NCBI GenBank assembly: GCA_018818405.1
Contig: JAHIRY010000011.1
Coordinates: 1 to 34,656 of the forward strand
Direction: 5' to 3'
Source of the DNA: Patescibacteria group bacterium
GTDB lineage: Bacteria > Patescibacteriota > Patescibacteriia > UBA11705 > JABHMO01
DNA length: 34,656 nucleotides
In this document: piece by piece, positions 9,551-11,045 of the stretch
Numbering within the stretch: position 1 is the stretch's first letter
Layout: each line of letters starts with the position of its first letter
The notes under the pieces: generated by a model
What the model saw: only the letters and a program-made list of their open reading frames with translations
Databases searched by the model: none
What the model was told of the DNA's origin: nothing
Made by a program: the position numbers and the translations under genes

Positions 9551-9597
9551 TTTCGAGGTTATGAATTATGATTAATGAATTTTTATTATTACCGATG

Positions 9598-9637
9598 AAT
9601 CACCGCCCGCATAATGCGAGGGCGGTGATTTAATTTT
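9598..9637 (+). terminator. Probable terminator after the deoxynucleoside kinase
   Basis: Strong 11-bp stem AATCACCGCCC / GGGCGGTGATT with an inner GCAT-A-ATGC palindrome, followed by TTAATTTT. The T-run is interrupted, so it may instead be another copy of the palindromic repeat family. Confidence 0.55.
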
Positions 9638-9639
9638 CG

Positions 9640-9870
9640 AATTTGTCCCGCACACGGCAGTGATTTAGTATTTCTTTTTAATAAAATGCAGGCGCAATAT
9701 TTTGCGCCTCTACGAAATTTTCGGACGCTATCCCTTGTTTCTTTCGCAATTAGGATTTGTTATTTGGAATTTCGAATTTAGAAATTAGGATTTCAACAGT
9801 GTTCCTTGCTCCTTGCTGATTGTTACATGCTACATGCTACATGTTCCATGTTATGCGCTCCCTGCTATCT
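9640..9870 (+). repeat. Dispersed intergenic repeat cluster (copy 2)
   Basis: No gene is seen here. The stretch holds, in order: a TTGTCCCGCACAC module (9643-9655), a palindrome AGGCGCAA-TATT-TTGCGCCT followed by CTACGAAA (9690-9709), TTGTTATTTGGAATTTCGA (about 9758-9776), the GTGTTCCTTGCTCCTTGCTG module (9799-9818) and TACATGC/ACATGTT tandem heptamers (9823-9855). Most parts recur at 5611-5751 (inverted) and 21540-21780. Confidence 0.75.
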
Positions 9871-9877
9871 AAAAAAG

Positions 9878-9886
9878 TTATCCACA
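9878..9886 (+). promoter_or_regulatory. Consensus DnaA box
   Basis: TTATCCACA, a perfect match to the DnaA box consensus, nine bases before the -35 of the long RNA promoter. A single 9-mer can occur by chance; its position is the reason for listing it. Confidence 0.4.
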
Positions 9887-9894
9887 GCCAGCGC

Positions 9895-9923
9895 TTGACG
9901 GTTTTAAATAGGATGTATATAAT
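9895..9923 (+). promoter_or_regulatory. Strong promoter of the long structured RNA
   Basis: -35 TTGACG (9895-9900), 17-bp spacer, perfect -10 TATAAT (9918-9923). This is one of the best promoter matches in the window. Transcription would start near 9930. Confidence 0.85.
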
Positions 9924-9929
9924 ACGTTT

Positions 9930-10583
9930 ACCTTCGCAGGAAGATCATTACAAGTTGAGCGGAAAAAAAACGAGCAGTCCTAAAATAACTGCCATCGAAT
10001 TTTTCGCACTCAGTTGCTGTTCACTTTAACTCGCATCTCGGAGCAATCCTTGATAACGGTTAGGTGATTTCCTTCGCGAGAAAACGGTATTTGTCGGGCT
10101 TGACCCGACTCTGACCGGATTCTTTCGAGGAATTCCCGTTCGGCCTGATCATGAGATTTTCTGGCAGATTAGCCGCAAGGCTTCTTTGCTAGCAACCTAG
10201 CGGAATATAACCATTTGCCTCGGCATTGGTTCATCCGCGAAGTTCGCAATCTCGAGGGATTAAATTCCCAGATCAATTGATGAGACATCGCAAAAGCAGA
10301 GATTGTCTTGGTAGGTTTAACCCCTTGTGGGCGACAATCTATCTTTAGAACGGCTTGCCGTTCAAGACTGCCTTTCCCTAGAGGAATGTTTAAAAGCGCC
10401 CAGGAGAAATCCAAAGCACTTCGAACAATTCTCAACCGGATCGGTTATATCTCACGCTAACGCGTCTCTCATCATCCAGCCAACTGGACAACAATTGAAA
10501 TCAACAAGGCATGGTCTCGCGGTTGCTAACACAACTGCAGTCTGCCGGGTAGGGGGTATTCGCTTTGCGAGTGCCCCTTTTTT
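9930..10583 (+). ncRNA. Long structured non-coding RNA of unknown class (about 650 nt)
   Basis: Bounded by the promoter at 9895-9923 and a terminator at 10553-10590, with no credible reading frame between. Perfect local hairpins: GTCGGG/CCCGAC (10093-10109), GCTAG/CTAGC (10188-10201), AGATTGTC/GACAATCT (10300-10307 with 10333-10340), GAACGGC/GCCGTTC (10348-10363) and TCCAG/CTGGA (10475-10488). A long-range 8-bp helix with one G-U pair could join 10161-10168 to 10541-10548. It lacks tmRNA hallmarks (T-arm, CCA end, tag frame), the RNase P core (GAAAGUC, ACAGAAA), an SRP tetraloop region, a group II domain V and a group I P-Q-R-S core, as far as I can read. It sits between a deoxynucleoside kinase and the membrane protein/Clp-like operon. 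It may be a member of, or resemble, the large ornate bacterial RNAs, but I cannot assign it. Confidence 0.7.
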
Positions 10584-10590
10584 CTTTTCT
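10553..10590 (+). terminator. Terminator of the long structured RNA
   Basis: 11-bp stem GGGGTATTCGC / GCGAGTGCCCC (two G-T pairs), loop TTT, followed by TTTTTTCTTTTC. Confidence 0.85.
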
Positions 10591-10599
10591 TTATTTTGT

Positions 10600-10628
10600 T
10601 TGGCGGCGCGTTGAATTTGTGTTATAAT
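10600..10628 (+). promoter_or_regulatory. Promoter of the 10656-Clp operon
   Basis: -35 TTGGCG (10600-10605), 17-bp spacer, -10 TATAAT (10623-10628). It begins about 10 nt after the RNA terminator. The leader is about 21 nt, without a Shine-Dalgarno sequence. Confidence 0.65.
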
Positions 10629-10655
10629 AAATTTGATTTTTATTTTTGAAAAATT

Positions 10656-11045
10656 ATGTACAGAGAAAATATTGCCGCGAAATCAGTGCGATTTATTTTC
10701 GTGGAAATAATAGGAGATTTTTTTTATTTTCCTTTTTGGTGGTACACCGGAGGCGTGAAAAAATCATTGGCGCGAATGAGTGATACGGTGTCTCAGGGCA
10801 ATCAAGAATTCGGTGTTACTATTTGGATCAAAAGTTTATTCAAACCGATGTACGGCCAGTATGATTGGCAAGGCAGAATTATCAGTTTTTTCATGCGTTT
10901 GTTTCAGATTGTCGTTCGTTCAATGCTTTTGCTTTTTTGGACGGTTTTTTCGGTTTTAGTGTTTTTTATTTGGATTTTTCTCCCGCTGTTTATTATTTTG
11001 CAAATATTATTCAACTTCGGACTTTTTGAAATCAATATTTTATAA
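10656..11045 (+). CDS. Small membrane protein upstream of the Clp-like ATPase
   Basis: 129 residues. The N-terminal 90 residues form an amphipathic, aromatic-rich region (FVEIIGDFFYFPFWWYTGGVKK, residues about 15-36, then a helix SLARMSDTVSQGNQEFG), followed by a hydrophobic stretch of about 35 residues (RSMLLLFWTVFSVLVFFIW, then LPLFIILQILFNF) that can make one long or two short membrane helices. I know no named family, but the fixed order before a membrane-anchored Clp ATPase, with a 6-nt gap, suggests that the two work together at the membrane. Expressed from the promoter at 10600-10628. Confidence 0.75.
   Translation: MYRENIAAKSVRFIFVEIIGDFFYFPFWWYTGGVKKSLARMSDTVSQGNQEFGVTIWIKSLFKPMYGQYDWQGRIISFFMRLFQIVVRSMLLLFWTVFSVLVFFIWIFLPLFIILQILFNFGLFEINIL

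Follow-up and report, generated by a model that had tools for sequence, protein, structure and literature searches.

Transcription unit and promoter context

The window (the whole stretch of DNA that was analysed, 34.7 kb) belongs to a Falkowbacteria-like Patescibacteria genome, designated G000. The neighbouring genes encode UvrD, a deoxynucleoside kinase (dNK), a small membrane protein, a Clp ATPase, and a family 4 glycosyltransferase. Positions 9878–10590, flanked by the kinase gene and the membrane protein/ClpC operon, form a stand-alone transcription unit made up of a box, a promoter, a body of ~620 nt, and a strong terminator. The elements of this unit, and the promoter that follows it, are:

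9878–9887, + strand: DnaA-box-like sequence TTATCCACAG, 5' of the promoter; each of the four homologous units has it in the equivalent position
9895–9923, + strand: sigma-70 type promoter TTGACG-17-TATAAT, which matches 11 of 12 consensus positions and is the best site in the region
9928–10585, + strand: predicted large structured non-coding RNA (body 9928–10550 plus terminator), the 5' end being placed from the promoter
10551–10579, + strand: intrinsic terminator, a 13-bp stem followed by a T-run
10600–10628, + strand: extended −10 promoter of the membrane protein/ClpC operon (TTGGCG-17-TATAAT with TG), separate from the unit and downstream of it

The predicted RNA is ~620 nt in size (the body is 623 nt), or ~650 nt when the terminator is included. 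A preliminary description of this DNA had proposed both a near-consensus promoter and a strong terminator, and both are borne out. The box at 9878 and the helix that closes the RNA end to end (see below) are additions to that account. The stretch that separates the kinase gene from the RNA (9571–9860) contains near-repeats ACATGCTACATGCTACATG as well as hairpins, such as AGGCGCAATATTTTGCGCCT at 9690–9709, and looks like intergenic repeat debris.

The placement of a DnaA-box-like sequence, TTATCCACA, 5–20 nt before sigma-70 promoters is found at many loci of the class (L014–L016, L030, L031, L033, L034, L039, L040, L189, L190, L192, L193, and L195). The corresponding pattern, a box close 5' of a sigma-70 promoter, is matched in 70 of 381 genomes of the class, versus 0 for a reversed control pattern. 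Among the matches examined, the genes behind these promoters, with names read from translated starts, include 16S and 23S rRNA, lexA, ftsZ, mraZ, rpsM, rpoB, and glnA. The pattern was also applied to the 381 genomes to locate non-syntenic members of the RNA family, and the matches examined were rejected, being the genes just named and other protein genes. A literature search on Patescibacteria and the DnaA box found no paper. Since promoters of the kind that precedes the RNA serve rRNA, ribosomal protein, rpoB, ftsZ, and lexA genes elsewhere in the class, we infer from sequence context that expression of the RNA would be abundant, strong, and linked to growth.

The presence of the box also brings up the reading that this locus is a DNA element, for example a DnaA-titration or replication control site, as the single exact occurrence of AGTTATCCACAG in the whole G000 genome is at the RNA unit. 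This is very improbable, as there is one box only, positioned just 5' of the −35 element as at many ordinary promoters of the class, and such an element would leave the folded, terminated body unexplained.

Two further observations were made on box-promoters. At lexA promoters (e.g. L014, L016, L030, and L039) the box is accompanied by a GTTCGnnnnnTGTTCG-like repeat between the −35 and −10 elements, a likely SOS operator of this class. Additionally, genome G007 contains two similar units of ~60 nt on contigs C12 and C46 (L178 and L220), each with a box-promoter and a hairpin terminator (AAAAAGGCUUUNGGC...), that are perhaps sRNAs.

Coding potential and known RNA families

Two ORFs lie inside the RNA unit, one of 88 aa on the − strand and one of 95 aa on the + strand, the latter with a GTG start and extending through the terminator. 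Neither has a match in a Pfam search. No reading frame is conserved across the homologous units described below, because these units share almost no sequence. The earlier statement that the unit holds no credible reading frame is therefore upheld, and Rfam scans likewise agree with the proposal that it is none of the known RNAs listed in the preliminary description. The window has zero matches to Rfam 15 at gathering scores, and lowering the threshold to E up to 10 for positions 9600–10700 yields chance-level matches only (E 0.32 or worse). Models of OLE, ROOL, and GOLLD match nothing in the window, in 9600–10700 (E up to 10), or at the homologous loci (E up to 5).

It could be argued that the unit is a housekeeping RNA (tmRNA, RNase P RNA, SRP RNA, or 6S RNA) that has diverged past recognition, and the failure of the SRP RNA and 6S models to match anything in these genomes fits such a proposal. 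The genes for tmRNA and RNase P RNA are, however, located elsewhere in the G000 genome, where covariance models identify them on contig C14 (135.5 bits) and contig C12 (101 bits), respectively, and neither is found at the RNA unit. Large-type SRP RNA and the M (RNA-binding) domain of Ffh are both absent from the eight genomes searched (G000–G006 and G008), while the Ffh search was positive in 14/14 controls. Small-type SRP RNA and 6S RNA models find no match in the five genomes of the family. Because the Ffh RNA-binding domain is missing too (8/8 genomes), no SRP RNA is to be expected, and the unit was rejected as an SRP RNA or its replacement. SRP appears to have been lost in these genomes, in agreement with the loss previously reported in Parcubacteria (PMC4508563). 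Furthermore, the SRP domain IV motif occurs in none of the four RNAs, nor in the searched genomes of the order, and a length of 620–1150 nt is too large for 6S RNA. A diverged housekeeping RNA is very improbable.

Homologous units and a shared architecture

Of the other four genera in the family, three (G001, G003, and G004) have a long unit without large frames in the same gap, usually with the deoxynucleoside kinase on one side and the membrane protein/ClpC operon on the other; the location of the RNA is thus conserved in 4/5 genera. In all three, TTATCCACAG and a sigma-70 type promoter come first, and an intrinsic terminator closes the unit. Body lengths are 623 nt in G000, 1154 nt in G001, 632 nt in G003, and 970 nt in G004. 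The longest exact words shared are the box, of 15–16 nt at most, and otherwise short pieces, and sequence conservation among the homologues is nearly nil beyond the promoter and the first ~30 nt. A DNA similarity search of the RNA against 93 relatives returned the RNA itself and one 24-nt promoter-like match in another genome, which was rejected as the locus is unrelated.

The syntenic gap of the remaining genus (G002) contains no large RNA unit. On contig C32 of this genome (L074), the gap holds a structured unit of ~130 nt that has a promoter, a terminator, no box, and a closing stem GGUCAUGAGC...GCUCAUGACC; this RNA is not counted as a member of the family. Among 80 public loci around the membrane protein, a box-promoter lies close upstream only in G003 and G004. 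A relaxed pattern applied to six related genomes gave candidates that were coding or unrelated, as were long gaps at the corresponding locus elsewhere in the order (L084, L110, L151, L156, L201, and L221). No unit with matching anatomy was recognised in G005, of which nearly the whole genome was scanned by folding. A hairpin-rich stretch of ~1.1 kb in G005, on the minus strand of contig C3 at ~519.8–521.0 kb (L248/L249), has a promoter and a terminator, lies near the RNase P RNA gene, matches no Rfam family at gathering scores, and is possibly a second large RNA.

The position of the RNA directly 5' of the membrane protein/ClpC operon in 4/4 genomes is what would be seen if it were a cis-acting 5' leader (a riboswitch or attenuator) of this operon. 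The strong terminator and then the operon's own promoter at 10600–10628 intervene, and this separate promoter indicates that the RNA is not the leader. The operon also occurs across the order without the RNA (e.g. G005–G009). A leader function is accordingly given very little weight.

Despite the near absence of shared sequence, the RNAs are predicted to share an architecture. The unconstrained minimum free energy (MFE) folds of the G000, G003, and G004 RNAs have one topology, in which a closing helix (P1) leads to a three-way junction with a long arm (P2) and a hairpin (P3). P1 links the 5' end to the bases immediately before the terminator through 9–10 pairs, P2 encloses 576, 579, or 904 nt (G000, G003, and G004, respectively), and P3, next to P1, is a hairpin of 20–24 nt. 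The corresponding elements of the G000 RNA, together with a conserved 5' motif and two local hairpins, are:

9929–9940, + strand: 5' strand of P1, pairing with 10541–10551 (probabilities 0.8–0.98, except 0.36 for the innermost pair)
9942–9958, + strand: 5' strand of the long arm P2, pairing with 10501–10517; a counterpart pairing is possible in the other three RNAs
9945–9955, + strand: conserved 5' motif UCAUUACAAGU, present as the same 11-mer with equal offset in G001, and as UUACAAG in G004
10093–10109, + strand: local hairpin GUCGGGCUUGACCCGAC, of a kind whose count is not above chance
10348–10363, + strand: local hairpin GAACGGCUUGCCGUUC, with a perfect stem
10501–10517, + strand: 3' strand of P2, pairing with 9942–9958
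10519–10538, + strand: P3 hairpin GCGGUUG-CUAACA-CAACUGC, between P2 and P1; each of the four RNAs has a hairpin of 20–26 nt in this position
10541–10551, + strand: 3' strand of P1, the end-closing helix

Dinucleotide-shuffled bodies reach this topology in 2/250 cases for G000, 1/250 for G003, and 1/150 for G004 (4/650 in total); as the topology criterion was set after the folds were seen, these fractions are not clean probabilities, and if G004 is taken as the seed the other two agreements are still about 0.008 and 0.004. The MFE fold of the G001 RNA (−293 kcal/mol) contains P1 and lacks P2. Enforcing a 13-pair P2, which was found by eye, costs 3.4 kcal/mol over the MFE, and a P3 of 26 nt then forms unforced.

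The sequences of P1, P2, and P3 differ among the RNAs while pairing is retained. The 5' strands of P1 are all different (UACCU-UC-GCAGG in G000, UUACCAUC in G001, UGCGUUCGC in G003, and UUGCAGUCGC in G004), and each is complementary to its own 3' end, with pair probabilities mostly 0.7–1.0 in 4/4 RNAs. P1 by itself is a modest signal, as it arises in about 0.01–0.07 of shuffles per RNA. In the predicted folds, strands that differ and remain complementary amount to compensatory change at the level of the whole helix. Compensatory changes, which the preliminary description had named as a check on its proposal, are thus present as whole helices in four divergent sequences; the comparison comprises four members of one family that are too divergent to align, which precludes a column-wise covariation statistic. 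A long-range helix suggested earlier between 10161–10168 and 10541–10548 did not hold up: the two segments are complementary, but the predicted pair probability is 0.0 because 10541–10551 pairs with the 5' end at 9929–9940 in P1.

Additional evidence comes from hairpin loops and from repeated modules. Counting GNRA and UNCG loops closed by stems of 4 or more pairs gives 17 on the sense strand, 4 on the antisense strand, and about 3.6 in shuffles, and the density of such hairpins on the sense strand is 5.0 per kb versus 1.5 in adjoining coding DNA. A hairpin module of 125 nt is present twice in the G004 RNA, which folds more strongly than any other member (z −16), and the two copies agree at 85/125 positions without gaps. 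The consensus fold of the two copies (alifold) has an energy of −28.5, compared with −9.8 ± 3.0 for column shuffles. None of its 27 consensus pairs is lost; 11 show changes, 2 of these on both sides. Duplication of this module probably accounts for part of the size difference between members.

Folding energy and local hairpins are less informative. Compared with dinucleotide shuffles, the G000 region has MFE z-scores of −6.9 and −7.7, or about −6.2 if shuffling is restricted to the body, and z-scores for the four units in G000, G001, G003, and G004 are −7.7, −4.7, −5.5, and −16.3. The antisense strand of G000 folds with z = −7.6, so energy alone cannot identify the RNA strand, and other intergenic gaps of the order (those of a related genome) often reach z-scores below −8, so folding energies alone are insufficient for the case. 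The five perfect hairpins reported earlier are present, with stems of at least 5 bp at 10093, 10188, 10348, 10434, and 10475, but their number is not significant, as shuffles give 3.3 ± 1.6 such hairpins (p = 0.25 for five).

These last results are what would be expected if the unit were a non-functional spacer, that is, leftover intergenic DNA flanked by an active promoter and a terminator, with inverted repeats whose strong folding is due to chance. Strongly folded gaps in a related genome, a hairpin count not above chance, and the near absence of sequence conservation except in the promoter and the first ~30 nt all fit such a spacer. In contrast, four genera retain the arrangement of box, promoter, and terminator at one locus, with a body kept over 620 nt, the three-way topology recurs in independent folds, stable tetraloops are biased to the sense strand, and paired changes occur in the G004 module. 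A spacer is thus unlikely, and the unit is very probably a structured RNA gene on the evidence of its sequence and predicted folds. As in structured non-coding RNA genes generally, it has its own promoter and terminator and a structure predicted to be kept across homologues, here in just four of them.

Comparison with known large RNAs and biological significance

The ends of tmRNA and RNase P RNA, which are stable bacterial RNAs, are likewise joined in helices. Unlike the window RNA, the G000 copies of both sit elsewhere in the genome. Few large structured RNAs without an assigned function are known from bacteria (OLE, ROOL, and GOLLD). OLE RNA, an Rfam family of Bacillota, is similar in being about 600 nt long, independent, and heavily structured, with a function that is not settled, and it is bound by proteins and associated with the membrane (PMC12265935). 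OLE has long stretches of conserved sequence (PMC9723947), whereas the window RNA family keeps almost none, and the operon downstream of the window RNA also exists without it. ROOL is comparable in size (about 600–660 nt) and is also large, ornate, patchy across lineages, and of unknown function, and its abundance can equal that of 16S rRNA (PMC12286853, PMC5643018). ROOL is encoded by phages or prophages near tRNA islands (PMC12286853), whereas the window RNA is chromosomal and has no match to ROOL. GOLLD, often above 800 nt, varies strongly in size (PMC12286853), as does the window RNA family (623–1154 nt). The phage or prophage setting near tRNA islands that is typical of ROOL and GOLLD was not found at the window RNA, and the 34.7-kb window contains no tRNA. 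Three large bacterial RNAs were recently shown to form ordered RNA-only assemblies (PMC12286853).

The preferred reading, with a probability of roughly 0.7, is that this unit is the gene for an independent RNA of ~620 nt that is not translated and belongs to a fast-evolving, lineage-specific family of large structured RNAs, possibly with an architectural role as an RNP scaffold. The absence of a known-family match and of a conserved frame, together with the compensatory changes in the modelled helices, supports the earlier proposal of an undescribed large structured RNA; the five hairpins and the long-range helix cited for that proposal do not contribute to this support. Selection would keep global shape, location, and transcription signals, and not a catalytic core or an antisense or pairing seed. 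As selection would act on overall shape, an architectural mode appears the likeliest, in which the RNA would scaffold a ribonucleoprotein or assemble by itself into an RNA-only particle, as for OLE, ROOL, and GOLLD (PMC12286853, PMC12265935). From the conservation of shape, a scaffold mode of action is put forward tentatively, given that the unit is a structured RNA gene.

No report of a large structured RNA from Patescibacteria was found in the open literature searched. Near-total sequence turnover means that sequence-seeded RNA discovery would miss such genes, as only synteny and folding exposed this RNA. More speculatively, the family may represent a new class of RNA in which architecture and place are conserved and sequence is almost free, which lengthens by module duplication, and which is expressed together with the translation machinery and builds an RNA or RNP particle in the ultra-small Patescibacteria. 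The genomes of Patescibacteria are small and strongly reduced, with SRP apparently lost, and a retained RNA of 620–1150 nt must pay for itself.
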